DNA from: a bacterium | Lineage (GTDB): Bacteria > CLD3 | NCBI GenBank assembly: GCA_020850775.1 | Contig: JADZEA010000015.1 | Location: forward strand, 1 to 33,781 | DNA: 33,781 nt | Direction of reading: 5' to 3' | Part shown: piece by piece, positions 5,196 to 23,915 of the stretch | Layout: each line of letters opens with the position of its first letter | Numbering within the stretch: position 1 is the first letter of the stretch | Made by a program: the position numbers and the translations under genes | Notes under the pieces: model-generated | What the model saw: the letters and a program-made list of their open reading frames with translations, nothing else | Database searches by the model: none | Told to the model about the DNA's origin: nothing

Positions 5196-6491
5196 TTATT
5201 CAATTTTCGCAACTGTAAAAATGTAATCAACGTGTTTCAGGCTTTTTTTCAAGTCAAAACAGGATTCAAGTTCTTCAACCGAAAGGTAAACACGGATTTC
5301 AGAATCTTTTTTGAGAACTTCCTTAAAATTTTCTTTCGTTTTCCAGACTTCCATCGCATTCTTTTGGACAAGCCTGTAAGCAATTTCTCTCAGACAACCT
5401 TTTTTGGTCAGTGCTAAAAGAACAGTTTGCGAGAAAACTAAACCATTGGTTAAGTTAATATTTTTCAACATATTTTCAGGGTAAACAAGCAAGTTTGCAA
5501 CCAAAGAAATTGATTTGTTCAAAAGATAATTTGTCAAAATTGTGCTGTCCGGTAAAATTATTCTCTCCACTGAAGAATGTGAAATATCTCTTTCGTGCCA
5601 TAAAGCTACGTTTTCCATTCCTGCAAGTGCATTTGTCCGTAAAATTCTTGCAAGCCCTGAAATTTGTTCGCTAACAATCGGATTTCGTTTGTGAGGCATT
5701 GCAGAAGAGCCTTTTTGACCTTTTGAAAAGAATTCTTCGGCTTCTGAAACTTCCGTTCTTTGCAAGTGCCGGATTTCAACTGCAATTTTATCAAGCGTGG
5801 TCCCAATCAAAGCTAAAGCTACTAAAAACTCTGCGTGTCTGTCCCTTTGAACAACTTGAGTTGAGACTGTTTCCGCTTTCAAACCAAGTTTTTCACAAAC
5901 ATAATTTTGAACGTAAGGTTCAAGGTGTTCAAAAGTTCCGACTGCACCTGAAATTTGCCCGACGGAAGCATTTTCCAAAGCGTTCTCAAGTCGTTTTTTG
6001 TTTCTTCGCATTTCTTCACACCACAAAGCGAATTTTAAACCAAACGAAGTTGGTTCAGCGTGAATTCCGTGAGACCTTCCAATGCAGGGAGTATTTTTAA
6101 ATTCAATTGCTCTTTTTCGCAAGACTTCAATAAATTTTTCAATGTCTTGCAAAATTATTTCGCCTGATTGCTTCATTTGAACCGCTAAAGCTGTGTCTAA
6201 AACGTCTGAAGAAGTCATTCCGTAGTGAATGTGAACAGAATCTTCGCCAACAAATTCTGCAACATTGGTCAAAAAAGCGATAACGTCGTGTTTGACTTCT
6301 GCTTCAATTTCAAGAATTTTTTCAACGTTAAAGTTCGCTTTTTCACGAATATTTTTCACAACATTTTCAGGGATTTCACCTGCTTTAGCTCGTGCTTCGC
6401 AAGCTAAAATTTCAATTTCTAACCAAATTCTGAAACGATTTTCGTCAGACCAAATTTTTTCAAGTTCTTCGCGGGAGTAACGCTTAATCAT
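5196..6491 (-). CDS. purB: adenylosuccinate lyase
   Basis: Removes fumarate from SAICAR and from adenylosuccinate, acting twice in purine synthesis. The 431-residue length is normal. It carries the fumarase/aspartase superfamily signature GSSAMPHKRNP at 261-271, with the catalytic serine in the flexible loop, HYGMTSSDVLDT at 89-100, and GRSHGIHAEPTSFG at 138-151, which holds the conserved His141. The ATG at 6491 is followed by MIKRYSREEL, a usual N-terminus. It is the first gene of the leftward block; lgt diverges on the other strand 162 nt away. Confidence 0.95.
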   Translation of the reverse strand: MIKRYSREELEKIWSDENRFRIWLEIEILACEARAKAGEIPENVVKNIREKANFNVEKILEIEAEVKHDVIAFLTNVAEFVGEDSVHIHYGMTSSDVLDTALAVQMKQSGEIILQDIEKFIEVLRKRAIEFKNTPCIGRSHGIHAEPTSFGLKFALWCEEMRRNKKRLENALENASVGQISGAVGTFEHLEPYVQNYVCEKLGLKAETVSTQVVQRDRHAEFLVALALIGTTLDKIAVEIRHLQRTEVSEAEEFFSKGQKGSSAMPHKRNPIVSEQISGLARILRTNALAGMENVALWHERDISHSSVERIILPDSTILTNYLLNKSISLVANLLVYPENMLKNINLTNGLVFSQTVLLALTKKGCLREIAYRLVQKNAMEVWKTKENFKEVLKKDSEIRVYLSVEELESCFDLKKSLKHVDYIFTVAKIE

Positions 6492-6653
6492 TGTTTTTAC
6501 TTTGCCTTAATTTTGTTTTAAAAAATTTAAAAGTTTCTTTTGAAGTTTCAAACTTAAAAAATAAAAAGGTTTTTTATTCAATTCCAAAAAATATTAAAAT
6601 TGCTTTTGGGAGTTAGTTAAGTTAAGTTTGTCAAAATTTTAAAGAGGAAATTT
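6492..6653. promoter_or_regulatory. divergent intergenic region, purB/lgt
   Basis: This 162-nt, very AT-rich gap separates two divergently transcribed genes, so it must hold promoters for both. I could not single out convincing -35/-10 pairs among the many A/T runs. The lgt ribosome binding site (AGAGGAAA) lies directly before 6654. No purine riboswitch-like structure was recognised. Confidence 0.4.
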
Positions 6654-7436
6654 ATGCTTGTTTGGGATTTTGACCCAACTTTAATCAAAGTCGGTCCACT
6701 TGAAATTCGTTACTACGGAGTTTTGTTTGCAAGTGCAGTTTTGTTTGGTTTTCAGGTTTTGCGAAAGACTTTTAGGGAAAGCAACCTTAACGAAGAACTT
6801 GCTGAAACACTTTCAACTTACACAGTTGTTTCTTTGGTGATTGGAGCAAGGTTAGTTCACTGTTTGTTTTACAATCCTGAATTTTACCTGAGCAATCCCT
6901 TAGAAATTCTTTTCATTTGGAAAGGTGGAATTGCTTCTCACGGAGGAGCTTTGGGAATGCTCGTTGCTGTTTGGCTCTTTAACAAAAAAACTGGAATTGG
7001 TTTTGAAAAACTTGCGGATAAAATTGCGGTTTCAATTACTGCCGCACCGGTTTTGATTAGGCTTGGCAATTTTTTTAATTCTGAAATTGTTGGAAAAGCA
7101 ACAGACGTTCCCTGGTCAGTAATTTTTCTTCGTTACGACAACATTCCCCGGCATCCTTCGCAGCTTTACGAAGCATTTTTAGGCTTTTTAGTTTTTATTG
7201 CGATGTGGAAAATTTATTGGAAAACTCACAAAGAAAAACCTGACGGCTATTTTATGTATCTTTTTATTACGCTTTATTTTACGCAAAGATTTTTAATTGA
7301 GTTTGTAAAAGAAAGCCAGACAAACATTGAACAAACTTTGCCTTTAGACATCGGTCAACTTTTAAGTTTACCATTTTGGATTTTTGGTGTTCTTATGCTT
7401 TGGAAAAGAAGCAGACAAGCAAAAAAAATAGTGTAA
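6654..7436 (+). CDS. lgt: prolipoprotein diacylglyceryl transferase
   Basis: Inner-membrane enzyme that attaches diacylglycerol from phosphatidylglycerol to the lipobox cysteine of prolipoproteins, the first step of lipoprotein maturation. Its 260 residues are normal for the family. GGIASHGG at 91-98 contains the conserved His96. The Lgt signature RLGNFFNSEI at 136-145 contains R136, N139 and E144. RHPSQLYEA follows at 166-174. Multiple hydrophobic helices fit an integral membrane protein. The ATG follows AGAGGAAA. A lipoprotein with a clear lipobox is encoded in this same window (16858-17712), consistent with an active pathway. Confidence 0.95.
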   Translation: MLVWDFDPTLIKVGPLEIRYYGVLFASAVLFGFQVLRKTFRESNLNEELAETLSTYTVVSLVIGARLVHCLFYNPEFYLSNPLEILFIWKGGIASHGGALGMLVAVWLFNKKTGIGFEKLADKIAVSITAAPVLIRLGNFFNSEIVGKATDVPWSVIFLRYDNIPRHPSQLYEAFLGFLVFIAMWKIYWKTHKEKPDGYFMYLFITLYFTQRFLIEFVKESQTNIEQTLPLDIGQLLSLPFWIFGVLMLWKRSRQAKKIV

Positions 7437-7486
7437 TTTCTTGATTTGTTGCTTACTTTCACTCAAAAAACCGGGAGGAATTAAAA

Positions 7487-8572
7487 TTGTCAAAACTAAT
7501 TAAAATTTTAATTTGCTTGGCTTTTGCTTCATTGGGAAACGTATTCGCAAAGCCAAAAAATTCAATCTCTTACAATGTTGTTTTTGATTATGAAATGACT
7601 TACAATGACAATGTTTCGCTTTATTCTAAAAATAGCATTGATGATTTCAAAAGCAACCAAAACCCTTACCGCTACGGGATTTCTACTTACGATGATTTGA
7701 TTTTTAGTCCAACATTAAAAATTTATGCCACACAAAAATTTAGCAAAGACTTTGAAACAAAACTCAGGCTTAAAGGAACTTTCAACCAGTTCTTTAAAAA
7801 TGGCAACGAAAAAACTTACCAAAGCTATCAGCTACGTTTTTACAATTCAATTTTTAAAGAAAACAGCCTCGATTTTGGCTACAGTTTGATTCCAAAATTT
7901 TACGTCAGAGATGTTTTTGACACAGAAACACGCGAAGCCATCAACCAGTCAACAGGAAAACGTTACACAGTTGAAGAAGCGTACAGACCTTTTGAGTTTG
8001 AAAAAGAAAGCTACGACGTTTCTTTTAGCCGAAAACTTCCTTACAATCTTGAACCAACAATCACCTACAGTTTTACAAAATATTTTTACAACGAATTTTT
8101 TACGGAGTACGACACAAAAATTCACCAGGTTGGCGGAGATTTACGCTACAAAATCAATGAACTTGTGGTTGACCCTTTTTATTCTTACGAAACAAGCAAT
8201 GACAAAGGTGATTTTGATTCTGACGCTTCTTACGATTCCAATACTTTCGGAGTTAATTTTGATTACAGGTTCCCAAAAGTTCCTTACCTGAAAAGAATTT
8301 CAACTGGTTACGAGCTTGAAAAAATTTACTACCAAAGCAACTTTCCGGTTGAAACTGACCCTGTTCACGCAGGGAGAAATGATTCAGTCTGGAAACTAAA
8401 ATTTTCTGCCGGTTTTGAACTGAACAAACAAACAGGAATTTCTTTTGACTATCTTTTCAGGGAAAGAAGCTCAAGTTCAAAAGGCGGAGAAAACGAAAGC
8501 CAGGAACTTTCTGACGTGAAAAACTATAAAAATAATCAAATTACCTTGACTTTTAGTTACAGCTACAATTAA
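7487..8572 (+). CDS. predicted outer-membrane beta-barrel protein
   Basis: The family is not recognised. The 361-residue protein starts at TTG 7487 with GGGAGG about 9 nt upstream. A signal peptide is clear: positive N-terminus, hydrophobic core, cleavage site VFA after residue 21. The mature part is rich in Tyr, Phe, Asn and Asp, with alternating polar/aromatic segments separated by acidic or glycine turns (for example TITYSFTKYFY and QITLTFSYSY). That pattern fits transmembrane beta-strands of an outer-membrane barrel. The chain ends in an aromatic strand, FSYSYN, as expected for a barrel closing strand, although not with the usual terminal Phe. The gene follows lgt by 50 nt. It could be a porin or an assembly-related barrel; no ligand can be inferred. 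Confidence 0.7.
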   Translation: MSKLIKILICLAFASLGNVFAKPKNSISYNVVFDYEMTYNDNVSLYSKNSIDDFKSNQNPYRYGISTYDDLIFSPTLKIYATQKFSKDFETKLRLKGTFNQFFKNGNEKTYQSYQLRFYNSIFKENSLDFGYSLIPKFYVRDVFDTETREAINQSTGKRYTVEEAYRPFEFEKESYDVSFSRKLPYNLEPTITYSFTKYFYNEFFTEYDTKIHQVGGDLRYKINELVVDPFYSYETSNDKGDFDSDASYDSNTFGVNFDYRFPKVPYLKRISTGYELEKIYYQSNFPVETDPVHAGRNDSVWKLKFSAGFELNKQTGISFDYLFRERSSSSKGGENESQELSDVKNYKNNQITLTFSYSYN

Positions 8573-10516: not shown

Positions 10517-11833
10517 ATGGAAAAATTTCAGGGACTTTTAGGAGTTTTAGCTTTTATTGGAATTGGCTACGCAATGTCCAACAATCGCAAAGCAATTCAT
10601 TGGCAAACAATTGGAGCAGGAATTTTAACGCAAATTATTTTTGCTTTGTTTGTCTTGAAAACACCTTACGGACAATCTGTTTTTGGAGCAATTGCAACTG
10701 GAGTTACAAAACTTTTAGATTTTTCAAAAGAAGGTGCAAACTTTGTTTTTGGCAGTCTTGCAACAGGAAGCCTTAGTGTCGGTGATTTATCTAAAAAGGC
10801 TGTTGAAGAGCAAAGCGTCGTAAACCTGATTAGCAGTAACTTAAATTTAGGGTTCATTTTTGCCTTTCAAATCTTACCAACAATTATTTTTGTCTCTGCT
10901 TTTATGTCTGTGCTTTACCACCTGAACATTATGCAAGTTTTAGTAAAATTAATGGCTTGGGTGATGCGAAAAATTATGAAACTTAGCGGACCGGAAAGTT
11001 TGTCTGTTGCTGCTAACACTTTCGTCGGACAAACCGAAGCTCCTTTAATCATTAAACCTTACGTTGGAAAAATGACGACTTCAGAATTAATGACACTGAT
11101 GGTTGGTGGTTTTGCAACGATTGCCGGTGGAGTTTTAGCTGCTTACATTGGTTTTCTTGGCGGCGACGACCCAATCAAACGAGTTGAATTTGCAAAACAC
11201 TTAATTGCCGCAAGTGTGATGTCTGCTCCTGCTGCAATTGTGATGGCAAAATTAATGATTCCTGAAACTGAAGATTACGACCCAAAAGAAAGACTTTACT
11301 TTGAAAAAAATACTACCAACGTGATTGACGCAGCAGCAAGCGGCGCCGCTGATGGATTGACTTTAGCCTTAAACGTTGCAGGAATGTTAATGGCTTTTAT
11401 TGCACTTGTGGCATTTGTGAACGCTCCTTTGGGCTGGATTGGTTCGTTTGTTGGTGTTCCTGACCTTAATCTTACAAAAGTTCTTGGAATTCCGTTTTCA
11501 GTTTTTGCCTGGTTGATGGGAATTCCTTTTGGAAAAGAGTGTATTGATTTTGGCTCGCTTCTCGGAACAAAAGTCGCCGTGAACGAATTTTTAGCCTACT
11601 TAAATCTTGGTGGAATGGCTAAAGATGGATTGCTTTCTTTCCGAAGCGAACTAATCGCAACTTACGCATTGTGTGGTTTTGCAAACTTCTCTTCAATTGC
11701 AATCCAAATCGGCGGAATTGGTGGAATTGCTCCGCACAGAAAACACGACCTCGCAAAAATCGGTTTGAAAGCAATGATTGGTGGAGCTTTTGCTTCCTGG
11801 ATGACTGCTTCAATCGCCGGGATAATCATTTAA
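10517..11833 (+). CDS. nupC: concentrative nucleoside transporter (CNT/NupC family)
   Basis: Cation-coupled nucleoside importer of the inner membrane. The protein has 438 residues and multiple hydrophobic helices. Family features are the N-terminal gate and core: AANTFVGQTEAPLIIKPYV around 167-185, the ELMTLMVGGFATIAGGVLAAY segment just after it, and FANFSSIAIQIGG near 392-404. The Gln-Thr-Glu and the Ser-containing segments correspond to nucleoside-binding positions in the family. It has a GGGA ribosome binding site 9 nt before the ATG. Being last in the cdd-udk-tdk run, it plausibly supplies the substrates for those kinases and the deaminase. Confidence 0.92.
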   Translation: MEKFQGLLGVLAFIGIGYAMSNNRKAIHWQTIGAGILTQIIFALFVLKTPYGQSVFGAIATGVTKLLDFSKEGANFVFGSLATGSLSVGDLSKKAVEEQSVVNLISSNLNLGFIFAFQILPTIIFVSAFMSVLYHLNIMQVLVKLMAWVMRKIMKLSGPESLSVAANTFVGQTEAPLIIKPYVGKMTTSELMTLMVGGFATIAGGVLAAYIGFLGGDDPIKRVEFAKHLIAASVMSAPAAIVMAKLMIPETEDYDPKERLYFEKNTTNVIDAAASGAADGLTLALNVAGMLMAFIALVAFVNAPLGWIGSFVGVPDLNLTKVLGIPFSVFAWLMGIPFGKECIDFGSLLGTKVAVNEFLAYLNLGGMAKDGLLSFRSELIATYALCGFANFSSIAIQIGGIGGIAPHRKHDLAKIGLKAMIGGAFASWMTASIAGIII

Positions 11834-11845
11834 TTTGGAAAAATT

Positions 11846-12685
11846 ATGGATTGGTTTAAAAGAAAACAAGAAGGAATTTTTACAACTACTAAGTCTGCAA
11901 TGCCTGACGGTTTGTGGCAAAAATGCGAAAATTGTGGCGAAGTGATTTTTGCTAAAGCAATAGAAAATAGTTTGGCTACTTGTGAAAAATGTAATTTTCA
12001 TTTTAGAACTGACGCAAAAGGCTACATTAATTTTTGGCTTGATGAAAATTCATTTGAAGAATTTAACCAAAACCTTAAATCAACAGACCATTTAGGTTTT
12101 GTCGATGCAAAAGGTTCTTACAAAACCAAACTTACCGAAACAATAAAAAAATCTGGTGTGAACGAAGCAGTACGAACCGGAAAAGGCAAAATTTCAAGTA
12201 GAGAAGTAATTTTTGTAGCAATGGATTTTAATTTTATGGCCGCAAGTATGGGTTCGGTTGTTGGAGAAAAAATATCAAGAGCAATTGACGAAGCAACAAA
12301 ACTAAAAATACCTTTAATCGTTGTTTGTGCTTCTGGTGGAGCAAGAATGCACGAAGGAGCTTTGTCTTTGATGCAAATGGCTAAAACAAGCGCAAAACTC
12401 GCAAGGTTTTCACAAAAAGGCGGATTTTACATCGCAATTCTCACAAACCCTACAACCGGCGGAGTTTCAGCAAGTTTTGCAATGCTTGGCGACATAATTT
12501 TAGCAGAACCAAAGGCTTTGATTGGCTTTGCCGGACCAAGAGTGATAAAACAAACAATTGGAAAAGATTTACCTGATGGTTTTCAAACTTCGGAATTTTT
12601 GCTTGAACACGGATTTGTGGATAGAATTGTTCACCGTAAAGAAATGAAAAATGAAATCAAAACTTTGATTGAACTTTTAACTTGA
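11846..12685 (+). CDS. accD: acetyl-CoA carboxylase carboxyltransferase subunit beta
   Basis: Beta subunit of the carboxyltransferase that makes malonyl-CoA for fatty-acid synthesis. The 279 residues are typical. The N-terminal zinc ribbon is C27, C30, C46 and C49 (KCENCG and TCEKCN). The crotonase-like core includes ASGGARMHEG, TNPTTGGVSASFA and AEPKALIGFAGPRV, all highly conserved AccD segments. It starts 12 nt after nupC. No accA, accB or accC is present in this window. Confidence 0.95.
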   Translation: MDWFKRKQEGIFTTTKSAMPDGLWQKCENCGEVIFAKAIENSLATCEKCNFHFRTDAKGYINFWLDENSFEEFNQNLKSTDHLGFVDAKGSYKTKLTETIKKSGVNEAVRTGKGKISSREVIFVAMDFNFMAASMGSVVGEKISRAIDEATKLKIPLIVVCASGGARMHEGALSLMQMAKTSAKLARFSQKGGFYIAILTNPTTGGVSASFAMLGDIILAEPKALIGFAGPRVIKQTIGKDLPDGFQTSEFLLEHGFVDRIVHRKEMKNEIKTLIELLT

Positions 12686-18627: not shown

Positions 18628-19848
18628 CTAACAGTAAAATTTTATGGTTTCAGTGGCAAAAGTTAAAGCGTTAAAAACCTCGTTCCAATCATTTCCACGA
18701 CAGTAAATAAAACCTTCACCCATGTAAGAATCGGTTTTTTTCATTCCAATTTTTGGAAAATCAATTCCACAAATCAAGTGTCCGATTTCCCTTTTTACGA
18801 CATCAAACCCAACAACTTCTTTGAGTGTTTCACCAACATTCCCTTTGGCTCGCAAACAAGCTGAGCCAACATTCCATTTTCTTTGTGGTTTCAAATCAAA
18901 ACGTTTGTTAAGCATTACGTTGCTCCACTCGTCAAAAAGATTAAAATCGTGTGCAAAATTATGAACGTCAATTATTGTTCCGCCTGCAGGTCTTGCTGCA
19001 ATTTCTCCAACGTAAATTTTCCCGTCTTTTTGTCTTCTGAACCATTCAAGATGAATCATTGAAGTTCCAACTTTCATTGCGTCAACAACTTGTTTGCTTG
19101 TTTCACGAATGTCATCAAATTCAGGGTTATCAATGTTTTTATTAAACATACAAAGTGGTTGAATCCACGAATTTAGCATTGCGTCAAGTGGAGTTGGGTG
19201 GTAAGTTGTGATTGAGTGAAAGACTATTTTTCCATTAATCACAAAAGCATCAAAAGTTCCTTCAACTCCTTCAATAAATTCCTCAATAATTACAGGATTT
19301 TTCGGAGTAATTGCTACGGCTTTGAGAGAATTTTCAAATTGTTTGTTGTCGTAAATCAAAAAAGTATTGTTGCAACCAGCTCCAAGCAACGGCTTGAGAA
19401 TGAGTGGAAAACTATTCCCAAGATTAAAATCACGCACTTCTTTTTCGCTTTCTACTTTTTTGTAGTTCGCACAAAGAATGCCATTTTCCTTAAAAATCTT
19501 TTTCATCAATGCTTTATCGCGGAATCTTTGGGCTGTTTCTTCCCCAATGCCTGAAATTCCAAATTTATCTCTAAGCCTTCCAACCAAAAGTTGCCTGCTT
19601 TCGTGAATGTTCAGCAGTGCAAAAACTTCCCTGTTTCGCGAAATTTCTACAATTGCTTTTTCAAGCTGTTCCTGGTTTGAAGCATCTTCAACTGTGAAAA
19701 CTTCATTAAAAACACCAAGTTTTACGATGTAATCGTGAGAATCCTGGCACAAAGCAATTAAATTTATGTCTTTATCTTTTTTTAGTGGAGTTACAAAACG
19801 CAAAGTTGCTTCGCCAAAATGTGGAGAGTAAAAAATAACGTTTCTCAT
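18628..19848 (-). CDS. ATP-grasp ligase, paralogue C
   Basis: Predicted ATP-dependent carboxylate-amine (or thiol) ligase of 406 residues, one of three close paralogues in this locus. The N-terminal domain (VIFYSPHFGEATLRFV) resembles a pre-ATP-grasp Rossmann domain. The ATP-grasp core has LILKPLLGAGC with K152 and a Gly-rich loop, IIEEFIEGVEG, HLEWFRR and VGEIAARPAGG. The acidic residues of the last two match the metal-binding positions of the fold. The chain ends IKFYC, with a terminal Cys shared with both paralogues. AAAGGA precedes the ATG. fmt follows after 2 nt. The product is unknown. Confidence 0.85.
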   Translation of the reverse strand: MRNVIFYSPHFGEATLRFVTPLKKDKDINLIALCQDSHDYIVKLGVFNEVFTVEDASNQEQLEKAIVEISRNREVFALLNIHESRQLLVGRLRDKFGISGIGEETAQRFRDKALMKKIFKENGILCANYKKVESEKEVRDFNLGNSFPLILKPLLGAGCNNTFLIYDNKQFENSLKAVAITPKNPVIIEEFIEGVEGTFDAFVINGKIVFHSITTYHPTPLDAMLNSWIQPLCMFNKNIDNPEFDDIRETSKQVVDAMKVGTSMIHLEWFRRQKDGKIYVGEIAARPAGGTIIDVHNFAHDFNLFDEWSNVMLNKRFDLKPQRKWNVGSACLRAKGNVGETLKEVVGFDVVKREIGHLICGIDFPKIGMKKTDSYMGEGFIYCRGNDWNEVFNALTFATETIKFYC

Positions 19849-19879
19849 AAACTAAATCCTTTAAGTTTTTAAAAAGCCT

Positions 19880-21094
19880 TTAACAATAAAATTTAATATT
19901 TTCGGCAGCAAAAACAGCTGCTTCAAGAACTTGTTTGTAACTTTCGCAGCGAACAAAAAGCGAACCTTCACCAACGTAACCATCATTTTTTTCTGAACCG
20001 ATTTCAGGAAGTTCAATCCCGCAAATCAGGTTTCCAAGTTTTTTCTGAACAAAATCAATTCCCGAAATTCCTAAAACTTTGTTTCCTGAGCCCTGAGCAC
20101 GCAAACCGACAGAAGCAACGCTGAACTTTCGCTCGGTTTTCAGGTCAAAACGCTTGTTAACCATCACGTTTCCCCATTCTGCACGCAAATCAACATCGTG
20201 AGCGAAGTTGTGAAGGTCAAGAACCGGTCCGCCTGCAGGTCTTGCTGCGATTTCTCCAACGTAAATTTTTCCGTCTGTTTTGCGTCTGAACCACTCAAGG
20301 TGAGTAATTGAAGTGTCAAGTTTCAAGGCTTCAATCACTCGTTTTCCTGTTTGCCTGACGTCGTCAAGTTCTGTTCTGTCCATTGTTTTATCCAAAGCAC
20401 AGATTGATTGTATCCAGGGGTTTTGCAAAACGTGTAAAAGTGGTGGAACGTAGTGAGTAATTGAATGAAAAGCAATTTTTCCATCAATCGTGAAAGTATC
20501 CAAAGAACCTTCTTCGCCGTCAATAAATTCTTCCAGAATCACTGAATTTTCAGGTGAGATTGTGAAAGAATTTAAGACATTTTCAAATTCATTTTCATTG
20601 TGAACAAGGTAAGTACTTTTACAACTAACACCTTTAAGTGGCTTAATTATGAAAGGAAACAAGCTTTTAGAAAGGAAGTTTCTTGCTTCATCGTTGCTTT
20701 CTGCTTTTTGGTAGTTTGCACACAGAATCCCATTTTCCTTGAATATTTTTTTCATCAAAGCCTTGTCGCGAAATTTTATTGCAGTTTCTGGTTTTATTCC
20801 GTCAATTCCAAATTTTTCACGGAGCCTGCTAATTAAAAGTTGAAAAGTTTCCTGAATGTTCAGAAGCCTGTCAATTTTTCTGCCTTGAGAAATTTTTGTG
20901 ATTGCCTGTTCAAGCTGGTTTTGGTTTGTTGCTTCTTCAACGTTAAAAAACTCGTTAAAACAACGCAAATTTTTGATGTAATCGTGAGAATCCTGTCCTA
21001 AACCAATCACGTTAAAGCCTTGTGTTTGCAGAGGTCTGACAAAACGCAAGGTGTTTTCCCCAAAGTGCGGAGAGTAAAAAATAATGTTTTTCAT
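19880..21094 (-). CDS. ATP-grasp ligase, paralogue B
   Basis: Second of three paralogous ATP-grasp proteins (404 residues). Its first ~135 residues align without gaps to paralogue A and are identical at most positions. The Lys of FIIKPLKG (K151) is kept, but the Gly-rich loop reads GVSC (155-158) where A and C have GAGC. HLEWFRR and VGEIAARPAGG remain. Near the C-terminus it also departs from the CRG-x2-W pattern of the other two (FVRCESYKQ). It ends IKFYC. AAAAGGAA precedes the ATG; that stretch is part of a direct repeat that flanks mazEF, so this gene probably once followed the methyltransferase gene directly. Confidence 0.85.
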   Translation of the reverse strand: MKNIIFYSPHFGENTLRFVRPLQTQGFNVIGLGQDSHDYIKNLRCFNEFFNVEEATNQNQLEQAITKISQGRKIDRLLNIQETFQLLISRLREKFGIDGIKPETAIKFRDKALMKKIFKENGILCANYQKAESNDEARNFLSKSLFPFIIKPLKGVSCKSTYLVHNENEFENVLNSFTISPENSVILEEFIDGEEGSLDTFTIDGKIAFHSITHYVPPLLHVLQNPWIQSICALDKTMDRTELDDVRQTGKRVIEALKLDTSITHLEWFRRKTDGKIYVGEIAARPAGGPVLDLHNFAHDVDLRAEWGNVMVNKRFDLKTERKFSVASVGLRAQGSGNKVLGISGIDFVQKKLGNLICGIELPEIGSEKNDGYVGEGSLFVRCESYKQVLEAAVFAAENIKFYC

Positions 21095-21131
21095 TTTTTC
21101 CTTTTAATTTTTTTGTGAAGCAACCGCAAAA
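21090..21131 (-). repeat. direct repeat, copy 1, right behind mazF
   Basis: A 42-nt sequence, read on the minus strand as TTTTGCGGTTGCTTCAC, then AAAAAAATTAAAAGGAAAA and AATGAA, containing the start codon and ribosome binding site of ATP-grasp gene B. It matches copy 2 (21713-21755) except for one substitution (A versus C after CTTCAC) and a one-base length difference in an A-run. In copy 2 the first half encodes the C-terminus FAVASPKN of the methyltransferase; here the same reading would give FAVASQKN and a stop, but no methyltransferase body precedes it. It is therefore a remnant or duplicate of that gene's end. Confidence 0.9.
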
Positions 21132-21140
21132 TTCTTTTTT

Positions 21141-21458
21141 TTAAAAAGAGAAAATTTCCAGTAGTTTTTTAATCACTTCTTTTTGTGTTTGAAAACTTAT
21201 AAAACCAAGTTTTTGAGTTAATCTTACTTTGTCAACAGTTCGGATTTGGTCTAAAACTATTTGACCTTGTGTACCTTGAAAATTACAAGTTACTCTTGAA
21301 GGGTAATTTTTGACACGTGTTGTCATCGGTGCAATGATTACCGTTGAAATAAATTTATTCATTTCATCCGGAGAAATTATCAGACAAGGTCTCGTTTTTT
21401 GCATTTCTTTTCCAAGCGTTGGTTCAAGATTAACAAGAAAAACATCAAACCGTTTCAT
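21141..21458 (-). CDS. mazF: MazF/PemK-type endoribonuclease toxin
   Basis: Toxin of a type II toxin-antitoxin pair; family members cleave mRNA at short sequences and arrest growth. I start at the ATG at 21458 (105 residues), with GGAAG 8 nt upstream, rather than at 21488. MKRFDVFLVNLEPTLGKEMQ is the usual opening. KTRPCLIIS carries the conserved Arg, APMTT the conserved Thr, and VLDQIRTVDKVRL the QxR-x2-D region, all typical of the fold. It overlaps mazE by 14 nt, with antitoxin first. The stop lies only 9 nt from a direct repeat (21090-21131) that marks the edge of the inserted cassette. Confidence 0.9.
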   Translation of the reverse strand: MKRFDVFLVNLEPTLGKEMQKTRPCLIISPDEMNKFISTVIIAPMTTRVKNYPSRVTCNFQGTQGQIVLDQIRTVDKVRLTQKLGFISFQTQKEVIKKLLEIFSF

Positions 21459-21717
21459 TTTTTTCTTCCCAAACCCATTCTGTCTCATCCCAGGAACTTT
21501 GGTTCGTAAGTTCGTCTAACAAGTTGTCATCTTTATTTTCAGACATTTTTTTAAAGGCATTTTTCCAACCCTTTCTGTTAGTTTTTTGAGAGCGAATGAC
21601 AATTTTATCCTGTTCAATTTCTAACTCAAGTTCTTTTGTTGTACCGAGTTTTTTTAAGATAACTTTAGATAATTTAATACCTTGTGAGCTATCAATTTTA
21701 ATGATTTTTGTCTTCAT
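21445..21717 (-). CDS. mazE: MazE-like antitoxin
   Basis: Antitoxin of 90 residues; in this family it binds and neutralises MazF and represses its own operon. The ATG at 21717 has AAAAGGAA upstream; a further upstream start would run into the methyltransferase gene. The N-terminal half has the swapped-hairpin AbrB/MazE pattern (KIIKIDSSQGIKLSKVILKK, then LELEIEQDKIVIRS) and would bind DNA. The C-terminal half is acidic (DDNLLDELTNQSSWDETEW), as expected for the segment that wraps the toxin. It lies 10 nt after the methyltransferase stop. Its start codon and ribosome binding site are within direct repeat copy 2. Confidence 0.88.
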   Translation of the reverse strand: MKTKIIKIDSSQGIKLSKVILKKLGTTKELELEIEQDKIVIRSQKTNRKGWKNAFKKMSENKDDNLLDELTNQSSWDETEWVWEEKNETV

Positions 21718-21755
21718 TTTTTTCCTTTTAATTTTTTGGTGAAGCAACCGCAAAA
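21713..21755 (-). repeat. direct repeat, copy 2, end of the methyltransferase gene
   Basis: A 43-nt sequence covering the last eight codons and stop of the methyltransferase gene, the short spacer, and the ribosome binding site and first bases of mazE. It is the counterpart of copy 1 at 21090-21131, 623 nt away. The two copies bracket mazEF exactly. Because one copy is in coding sequence and both supply a ribosome binding site to the next gene, the insertion left both neighbours intact. Confidence 0.9.
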
Positions 21756-22633
21756 ATATCTGAACCAAAAATAAGTTTCAAACCTAAAAAAACAAACAGC
21801 TTAAAGCCAATTTTCCCAAAAAAATCCGTTCGCATTGCAAAAGGATTTCCTGAATTTTTTAGCCAAACCTTGCTTTGCAATCCACAAGAAATTAAAGCAA
21901 TTTTCATACTTGGAATGCTTTGCTCGTTAATGTGCAAAAAAAGTTTGTCAGTTTCCAAATCCGGGTCTTTTTTTAGAGCCTGAAACTGCTCAACAACGGG
22001 ATGAACGGGCATTTTTCCTGTTTTCAGGAGCGTAAAAATTCCGCCAAGCCAGTAACCGTAAGTTCTTGACCAAACATTTGGCGTTGAGTGAATTATTAAT
22101 TTTCCATCTTTTTTGAGGACTCTGCGGGCTTCCCTGAGAATTGTGTAAAGCTCATTTTTTGAAATGTGTTCAACAACGTCAAGCAAAAAAATTTTATCAA
22201 AAGTTTTATCCGTAAAGTCTAATTTTTCAGCATTCACACAAATAAAATTAGTTCTGCTTTTAATTTCGTTTTCGTGAAGTTCACGTGTTTTTTGTGCAAA
22301 ATTTATGGCACTTTCAGAGTAGTCAATTCCTGTTGAAATTGCTCCAAGGTTTGCAGTTTGGAAAACAACTTCACCTCTTCCGCAACCAATATCCAAGACT
22401 TTTTCGCCTTTTTTGATTTGTGCAAGTTCAATTGGTATTTTGGTGTAACGTGTTGTTTCCAAACCTTTTGACTTAAAATAGGAATCGGCTGTATTTTTAT
22501 TCCCAACGTGTTTTGCGTAGTAAGTTTCATCGTAAAGAGATTGCAAACTTTTCGCAGTGTGTCCTTTGATAAACTTACAATAATCGCTGTAAGAATTGAT
22601 TTCAATCTCGTTTCCAAATGGTTTTTCAGCCAT
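21728..22633 (-). CDS. class I SAM-dependent methyltransferase
   Basis: Predicted methyltransferase of 301 residues with a Rossmann-type SAM-binding core. Motif I is VLDIGCGRGEV (about 79-89), the acidic residue of motif II is in TGIDYSESAI, and motif IV/V includes FLLDVVEHISKNEL and HSTPNVWSRTYGYW. The C-terminal region is hydrophobic (LFVFLGLKLIFG), hinting at membrane contact. The ATG at 22633 is preceded by GAAAG; a GTG 9 nt further upstream is an alternative. It lies between ATP-grasp A and the mazEF insertion. The substrate is unknown; the context suggests the product of the ATP-grasp enzymes. Confidence 0.85.
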   Translation of the reverse strand: MAEKPFGNEIEINSYSDYCKFIKGHTAKSLQSLYDETYYAKHVGNKNTADSYFKSKGLETTRYTKIPIELAQIKKGEKVLDIGCGRGEVVFQTANLGAISTGIDYSESAINFAQKTRELHENEIKSRTNFICVNAEKLDFTDKTFDKIFLLDVVEHISKNELYTILREARRVLKKDGKLIIHSTPNVWSRTYGYWLGGIFTLLKTGKMPVHPVVEQFQALKKDPDLETDKLFLHINEQSIPSMKIALISCGLQSKVWLKNSGNPFAMRTDFFGKIGFKLFVFLGLKLIFGSDIFAVASPKN

Positions 22634-22666
22634 TTTTTGCACTTTCTTTTGGAAGTGTGGAGTAGA

Positions 22667-22696
22667 AGTGAAAGTTTTATTTTTAAAACTTTCACT
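22667..22696 (-). other. 12-bp perfect hairpin between ATP-grasp A and the methyltransferase
   Basis: AGTGAAAGTTTT (22667-22678) and AAAACTTTCACT (22685-22696) pair perfectly around a 6-nt loop, 7 nt after the stop of ATP-grasp A. On the minus strand it is followed by CTTCTACTCC rather than a T-run, so it is not a classic terminator for this operon. It may stabilise the upstream mRNA or separate expression of the two genes. On the plus strand a T7 run follows, but no gene ends there. Confidence 0.55.
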
Positions 22697-22703
22697 AATT
22701 TTT

Positions 22704-23915
22704 TTAGCAGTGGATTTTGATTGTTTCAGTTGCCCAAATCAAAGACTGGAAAACATCGTTCCAATTTTCTCCGCGGCAAAAAATCAAACCTTCACCAACG
22801 TAACTATCAACTTTTGGCGAACCAATTGTCGGAATGTGAATTCCACAAATCAAGTGTCCAAGTTCTTTTTGCACAACATCAACACCTGAAATTTCTTTGA
22901 TTTCTTTTCCATCTCCCTGAGCCCGCAAACAAGCAGAACCAACGTTGTGTTTTCTGTGCAGGTAAAGGTCAAATTTTTTATTAACCATTACATTTCCCCA
23001 TTCTGCGAAAAGGTCTGTGTCGTGTCCAAAATTATGAACATCAATTATTGGTCCTCCTGGCGGTCTTGCAGCAATTTCACCAACGTAAATTTTTCCATCT
23101 TTTTGCCTTCTGAACCATTCCATGTGAGTCATTGAAGTATCAAGCCCTAATGCTTTGATTGTATTTTTTCCTGTTTCAATCACGTCTTTGTGAAGTTCGT
23201 CAAGGTCTTTGTCAAACATGTAAATTGGTTGGATCCAGGCATTTTGCATCGCTTTTAAAAGCGGTGGATGATAAGTTGTCATTGAATAAAAACTTATGTT
23301 TCCATTGATTGTAAAAGTGTCAAACGAGCCTTCTTCACCCTGAATAAATTCTTCCAAAATCATTGGCGAATTCATCGTAATGTTTAGCGTGTTTAAAATA
23401 TCTTCAAATTGTTCGTTGTTCCAAACTAAAAAAGTATCTTCACAACCAGCACCTTTTAGTGGCTTGATGATGAAGGGAAAACTGTTTGACAAAACAAATT
23501 CTCTCGCTTGTTCTTTGCTTTCGGCTTTTTGGTAATTTGCACACAGGATTCCGTTTTCCTTTAAAACTTGTTTCATCAATGCTTTATCACGAAATTTTTG
23601 TGCTGTTTCCGTGAGGATTCCATCAATTCCAAACTTTTCACGAATTCTGCTAATCAAAAGTTGGAAATTTTCCTGAATGTTCAGGAGCTTGTCAATTTTT
23701 CTGTTTTTAGAAATTTCAGTAATTGCCGCTTCAAGTTGATTTTGGTCTGTTGCGTCTTCAACTCTGAAAAATTCATTAAAACAGTTAAGGCTTTTTGCAA
23801 ACTCGTAAGAATCTTGCCCCAAACCAATTACGTTAAAACCGTAATTTTTCAAATGCTTTACAAATTTTAAAGTATTTTCTCCAAAGTGCGGAGAGTAAAA
23901 AACAATATTTTTCAT
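22704..23915 (-). CDS. ATP-grasp ligase, paralogue A
   Basis: First of the three paralogues in transcription order (403 residues). It has an N-terminal Rossmann-like domain (IVFYSPHFGENTLKFV) and a central helical part with FRDKALMKQVLKENGI, common in ATP-grasp enzymes. The core has IIKPLKGAGC with K151 and a glycine loop, ILEEFIQGEEGS, HMEWFRR with E266, and VGEIAARPPGG with E280. Such enzymes activate a carboxylate as acyl phosphate and join it to an amine or similar nucleophile. It ends IKIHC, the terminal Cys again shared. AGGTG precedes the ATG. It follows the S51-like/esterase fusion by 83 nt and precedes the methyltransferase. Substrates are unknown. Confidence 0.87.
   Translation of the reverse strand: MKNIVFYSPHFGENTLKFVKHLKNYGFNVIGLGQDSYEFAKSLNCFNEFFRVEDATDQNQLEAAITEISKNRKIDKLLNIQENFQLLISRIREKFGIDGILTETAQKFRDKALMKQVLKENGILCANYQKAESKEQAREFVLSNSFPFIIKPLKGAGCEDTFLVWNNEQFEDILNTLNITMNSPMILEEFIQGEEGSFDTFTINGNISFYSMTTYHPPLLKAMQNAWIQPIYMFDKDLDELHKDVIETGKNTIKALGLDTSMTHMEWFRRQKDGKIYVGEIAARPPGGPIIDVHNFGHDTDLFAEWGNVMVNKKFDLYLHRKHNVGSACLRAQGDGKEIKEISGVDVVQKELGHLICGIHIPTIGSPKVDSYVGEGLIFCRGENWNDVFQSLIWATETIKIHC

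Follow-up and report, generated by a model that had tools for sequence, protein, structure and literature searches.

A mazEF module between direct repeats of a host gene end, and similarly bounded toxin and nuclease modules in the same genome

Genes at the mazEF locus

The window analyzed here is a stretch of 33,781 nucleotides from a bacterium of the GTDB lineage CLD3 (assembly GCA_020850775.1, contig JADZEA010000015.1, positions 1 to 33,781). Read along the minus strand, one part of it holds ATP-grasp C, a methyltransferase, mazE, mazF, ATP-grasp B and ATP-grasp A, in that order, together with two copies of a direct repeat:

22704..23915, minus strand: ATP-grasp C, a paralogue upstream of the methyltransferase
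21728..22642, minus strand: class I SAM-dependent methyltransferase (Pfam Methyltransf_11, 5e-21), the upstream neighbour of mazEF
21713..21755, minus strand: direct repeat copy 1, comprising the last 8 codons and stop of the methyltransferase, a ribosome-binding site and the ATGAA of mazE
21445..21717, minus strand: mazE, antitoxin of 90 amino acids, aligning from residue 1 with the MazE proteins found beside MazF homologues; its own operator is absent
21141..21458, minus strand: mazF, PemK/MazF endoribonuclease toxin (PF02452, 1.3e-29; solved MazF structures, 2e-13)
21090..21131, minus strand: direct repeat copy 2, starting 9 nt past the mazF stop and giving ATP-grasp B its ribosome-binding site and start
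19880..21094, minus strand: ATP-grasp B (Pfam ATP-grasp_4), the downstream neighbour of mazEF
18628..19848, minus strand: ATP-grasp A, a paralogue downstream of B

A likely start of the methyltransferase is the ATG at 22633, and its C-terminus reads FAVASPKN before the stop. The start of mazF overlaps the end of mazE; a longer reading frame (21141-21488) exists, with homologues aligning from about M11. MazE gave no Pfam match above the cut-off. The toxin is preceded by a MazE-like antitoxin in one operon, which is the type II gene arrangement, and the pair is assigned to the mazEF type II toxin-antitoxin systems by family and gene order; its toxicity and neutralization are inferred, there being no expression data. 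The three tandem ATP-grasp paralogues span 18628-23915, and the paralogues of both this and a sister genome (G001) are 49-65% identical to B. An AT-rich hairpin (AGTGAAAGTTTT/AAAACTTTCACT) lies at 22667-22696, between ATP-grasp C and the methyltransferase; it could mark where the methyltransferase itself arrived, as a scar, or act as a terminator.

The direct repeat around mazEF

On the minus strand, the repeat copies are TTTTGCGGTTGCTTCACCAAAAAATTAAAAGGAAAAAAATGAA (21713-21755) and TTTTGCGGTTGCTTCACAAAAAAATTAAAAGGAAAAAATGAA (21090-21131), of 43 and 42 nt, which lie 623-624 nt apart and are distinguished by a single substitution and by one extra A in a homopolymer. In local alignment the copies score 74-75, whereas shuffled flanks reach 26-31 at most. 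A 32-nt core of the repeat occurs only twice in the 3.09-Mb genome, both times here, even with up to 3 mismatches allowed, and no other copy of the repeat was found in the rest of the genome or in the viral contigs searched. An earlier note, made from the sequence alone, had described mazEF as lying between direct repeats of about 42 bp that differ by one substitution and one base of length, and this description held in both the alignment and the genome-wide test of uniqueness. It had also stated that no transposase or integrase is present and that the route of entry is open; this likewise held, as none is found in the inserts and an enzymatic route has not been shown.

Copy 1 is the in-frame end of the methyltransferase gene (FAVASPKN and stop). 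Copy 2, which directly precedes ATP-grasp B, would read FAVASQKN and stop. The methyltransferase ends in LKLIFGSDIFAVASPKN here and in LKLFFADHIFAIAEPK in its nearest homologue (L122), a conserved C-terminus, which indicates that the duplicated stretch is the methyltransferase's own, native end. MazE relatives start with ATGAAGAC, and several of them begin with ATG AAG AC, as does the mazE of the window; the ATGAA common to both copies is therefore that of mazE on one side and that of ATP-grasp B on the other. Accordingly, the duplication proper is taken as about 37 nt, to which the starts of mazE and ATP-grasp B add a shared 5-nt junction microhomology, ATGAA. The insert is then a bare mazEF coding segment of 582 nt, with its right edge 9 nt after the mazF stop, and neither a transposase nor terminal inverted repeats were found within it. 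Base composition is uninformative, since mazEF is as A/T-rich as its surroundings, and foreign composition was dropped as evidence of insertion. Plasmid matches to the locus cover the toxin genes only, at about 70% identity.

The left edge is also marked by what is missing. An autoregulatory operator upstream of mazE is typical of mazEF, though not strictly defining. In 23 of 25 relatives scanned, a TGTAATTACA-like operator (up to 2 mismatches) was found within 100 nt upstream of mazE, mostly 13-50 nt upstream, whereas the same scan found none upstream of the window mazE. As the operator seen in relatives is missing here, it was concluded that the insert begins at the mazE start codon. Judging from the sequence, mazEF is translated from the duplicated host ribosome-binding site and has none of its own.

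Repeat-bounded modules elsewhere in the genome

Direct repeats 300-3500 nt apart were sought in 1,346,033 bases (43%) of the same 3.09-Mb genome, a draft of 265 contigs, and repeats inside one reading frame or with more than two copies were removed. Exactly five strong unique pairs remained, all of which bracket a toxin or nuclease module:

Pair 1: mazEF after the methyltransferase; repeat of 42/43 nt
Pair 2, L153 (contig C53), 2112-2954: a 101-aa protein and a 130-aa PIN toxin (PF01850) after fhs; 59 nt, of which 44 exact
Pair 3, L208 (C66), 6852-7932: a 208-aa protein and a 90-aa ParE-like toxin (PF24732) after a glycosyltransferase; 54 nt, exact
Pair 4, L177 (C34), 5284-7441: an NYN-domain nuclease (PF01936) after a 1186-aa ABC-2/M1-peptidase protein; 48 nt, one mismatch
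Pair 5, L238 (C97), 11679-12349: a 160-aa VapC-like protein and its 53-aa partner after purM; 38 nt, exact

All five modules lie directly after the host gene and in its orientation, and each repeat includes the host stop codon. Thus, in addition to mazEF, at least four more toxin, toxin-antitoxin or defence-nuclease modules in this genome are bounded by duplicates, 38-59 bp long, of a host gene 3' end. The repeat lengths differ by locus (42, 44-59, 54, 48 and 38), and no boundary motif across the five loci is apparent by eye. The copies are 93-100% identical and differ, by substitutions and indels, in three of the five loci. Since the second copy has largely no coding role and the identity has nevertheless persisted, the insertion events are considered recent.

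The 160-aa protein at purM has as its best plasmid homologue a protein 48% identical and annotated as a VapC family toxin. At its end the repeat overlaps the start codon of this protein, whose partner ends in the duplicated purM tail, the ten residues EKPFVVGKVR. The NYN-domain nuclease belongs to a candidate defence family (HEC-09, E 3e-43); it is a single candidate defence nuclease and not a proven addiction pair.

Several features of the surroundings were noted in passing. At fhs (formate-tetrahydrofolate ligase), the repeat starts at the stop codon, and a WD40-like gene fragment lies past the second copy. The 208-aa partner of the ParE-like toxin is unusual and without a family match, and a type II DNA methyltransferase gene follows this module. 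A gene for a Fic-domain protein stands directly after the NYN module. At purM, about 130 nt with an open stretch (FVKPEGSNLHVDFKSFMNLIYLKK) separate the second repeat from plsY and are unexplained.

Two other loci were not counted. L167, the sixth pair left after filtering, is a 29-nt repeat that links two HAD-like paralogues and falls outside the five strong pairs. At L148 (10416-11041), the C-terminal part of an Rpn/YhgA-like (PF04754) gene is duplicated in tandem, giving a separate reading frame of 97 aa; this is a longer, gapped repeat of another kind and was set aside.

Controls and loci without the scar

Three dinucleotide shuffles yielded no pair, and among inverted repeats of equal strength in the genome there was no unique pair, all being multi-copy. 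The scar is not found at every toxin locus, for two of the three Pfam PIN loci of this genome (L132 and L133) lack a gene-end repeat. None was seen around those mazEF relatives from elsewhere that were tested. The mazEF at L096 looked positive at first sight, and its repeats turned out to belong to a dispersed multi-copy intergenic family. A VapC pair on a Leptospira plasmid (L279, 26-nt repeat) was dropped because of a low-complexity repeat tract of the GGGACTTGT type.

The sister genome G001 provides one empty site. There purM runs directly into plsY, their stop and start codons overlapping (TAAATG), with a single gene end and no insert. Toxin genes are also absent after fhs and the glycosyltransferase in G001, but downstream synteny is not kept at these two loci.

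In the ATP-grasp array of G001, three consecutive ATP-grasp genes are separated by 45 and 14 nt, and no methyltransferase or mazEF lies between them; both are likewise missing from the vicinity of the other ATP-grasp loci retrieved. From these absences it follows that the methyltransferase joined the array secondarily and mazEF after it. No empty allele of the mazEF site itself, in which the methyltransferase would directly precede ATP-grasp B, was found; the only sister genome has no methyltransferase there. ATP-grasp B is the orthologue of the first G001 ATP-grasp gene (tree support 96/99), and the order of the ATP-grasp genes appears altered relative to G001, where the B orthologue stands first.

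Probable insertion with a long target duplication

Taken together, mazEF is likely a recent insertion with a long target duplication that left both neighbours intact, one of at least five like events in this genome; its retention by addiction and the route taken by the DNA are inferred. Entry by duplication of the site, as the earlier note had proposed, is the best-supported reading because the methyltransferase end is native, the operator is missing, four like modules exist and one empty site is known in a relative. The account in the same note needs a correction, in that the methyltransferase is itself not an ancestral member of the array (it is absent from G001 and the other loci). Of the checks that it suggested, the search for an empty site did not find the methyltransferase-ATP-grasp B junction, an empty site being known only at purM; the search for other toxin pairs bounded by the gene ends of their neighbours was positive, with the four further modules.

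In the proposed mechanism, about 37-42 bp covering the methyltransferase stop and the ATP-grasp B ribosome-binding site would have been duplicated, and the bare mazEF set between the copies. The DNA event would be independent of sequence, either the capture of a fragment in a staggered break whose ends are then filled in, or a microhomology-mediated template switch, for which ATGAA at the mazE junction may have served as a 5-nt microhomology. Insertion would be random; with selection keeping the host gene intact, the events that persist would be those whose duplication spans its stop codon, and inserts oriented like the host gene would be preferred because they are expressed. The empty site would be regained if the repeats recombined, yet loss of the antitoxin gene would expose the cell to poisoning by residual toxin, and addiction would in this way guard the insert. 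The predominance of toxin modules among the survivors may be explained on the same grounds, since repeats so long and close should recombine and antitoxin loss would be punished; toxicity of the modules and addiction remain inferred. The varied length of the duplications (38-59) and the lack of a boundary motif by eye argue against a transposase or a site-specific recombinase, though the enzymatic route has not been shown.

Alternative explanations

Replication template switching without a filled break, in which the copying strand switches to a toxin template and then back, 40-60 nt upstream, is a possible variant and, being compatible with insertion by long target duplication, is regarded as a sub-version of it. 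It is supported by short sequences common to the edges (ATGAA at mazE, AT at the purM-linked toxin) and by the fact that two inserts start at a start codon and one ends inside the antitoxin frame. Against it, the microhomology is short and A/T-rich, and the donor copy is not known, a search of the genome for a second MazF having found none. Site-specific integration of tiny non-autonomous islands, with the 3' end of the target gene as att core and a tyrosine recombinase acting in trans, would account for the target always being a gene 3' end, for the reconstituted gene, as in islands, and for repeat lengths within the att range. It is nevertheless very unlikely: the five targets are unrelated and share no common core, no integrase lies inside any insert, and every insert would need its own matching att copy.

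Campbell-type integration, in which circles carrying a toxin module and a copied host gene end enter by a single chromosomal crossover, is likewise very unlikely. One crossover at 40-60 bp of homology would give exactly the order repeat, module, repeat. However, each of the five different modules would first need to have acquired the right gene end, the repeat is in no viral contig searched, and the plasmid matches cover toxin genes alone. An assembly artefact, with toxin contigs joined through shared words of 38-59 bases, has in its favour the draft state of the genome (265 contigs) and the resemblance of the repeat lengths to assembly word sizes. It too is highly improbable, given that the copies differ in three of five loci and hence were read separately, that the flanking genes are intact, that the reading frame of the purM-linked antitoxin continues into the second copy, and that unique inverted pairs are absent, though chimeric joins should also yield them. 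For the two repeat pairs that are 100% identical, an assembly effect remains possible in principle.

A bolder version of the preferred reading, insertion with long target duplication, is that this lineage has an active process inserting small toxin or defence modules at gene 3' ends with 40-60-bp duplications. This is considered unlikely; if true, toxin-antitoxin pairs would themselves be mobile units that need neither transposase nor integrase.

Relation to known systems

Insertion with long target duplication is known from the restriction-modification genes of Helicobacter pylori (Nobusato et al. 2000, as cited in PMC1643837 and PMC3031569), and certain restriction-modification systems duplicate long target stretches of variable length, on the order of 100 bp, as they insert (PMC3874152). 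The latter source compares restriction-modification with toxin-antitoxin systems, and its relevant passages contain no case of toxin-antitoxin insertion. As in those insertions, a presumably addictive gene pair is found here within a long, variable direct duplication that would allow precise loss, and without a transposase. Unlike them, the cargo consists of MazEF, PIN, ParE-like and NYN modules, the duplications measure 38-59 bp rather than about 100 bp, and each of them lies at a gene 3' end and takes in the stop codon, with five cases in 43% of one genome.

The window copy resembles other mazEF systems (PemK/MazF, PF02452) in gene order, overlap and toxin family, but it lacks its own operator and ribosome-binding site and is embedded among co-directional ATP-grasp and methyltransferase genes. 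With the tyrosine-recombinase islands at gene 3' ends it shares the duplicated gene end and a target gene that stays functional; in contrast to these, there is no recombinase and no common att sequence, and the inserts are about 1 kb or less. A direct target repeat also flanks transposon insertions. Insertion sequences, with their transposase and terminal inverted repeats, produce duplications of a few to about ten bp; for IS5 and IS1 the duplications are 4-10 bp (PMC3031569). None of these transposon hallmarks (transposase, terminal inverted repeats, short fixed duplication) is seen here.

In the literature searched, which left out most subscription papers, no report of a toxin-antitoxin insertion with a long target duplication was found. 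What appears to be new is that a known insertion anatomy here carries toxin-antitoxin and nuclease genes, lies at gene 3' ends and recurs within one genome. It has long been an unanswered question how toxin-antitoxin pairs on chromosomes move without a carrier element, and recent insertions that still bear their scars offer readable junctions. They show that the incoming pair borrows ribosome-binding sites, and even stop codons, from the host genes. It is predicted that the duplicated gene ends should permit clean excision of the module, and that only addiction should prevent its loss.

A simple scan for unique short direct repeats around small genes could expose new toxin or defence modules in other genomes. 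Applied to 552 kb around ATP-grasp relatives in other genomes, the scan gave one pair, of 114 nt and not around a toxin module. In this unrelated genome (L088, 2664-5225), a repeat of the start of a glycogen-synthase-like gene brackets a 713-aa gene, which may represent a non-toxin insertion with a long target duplication.
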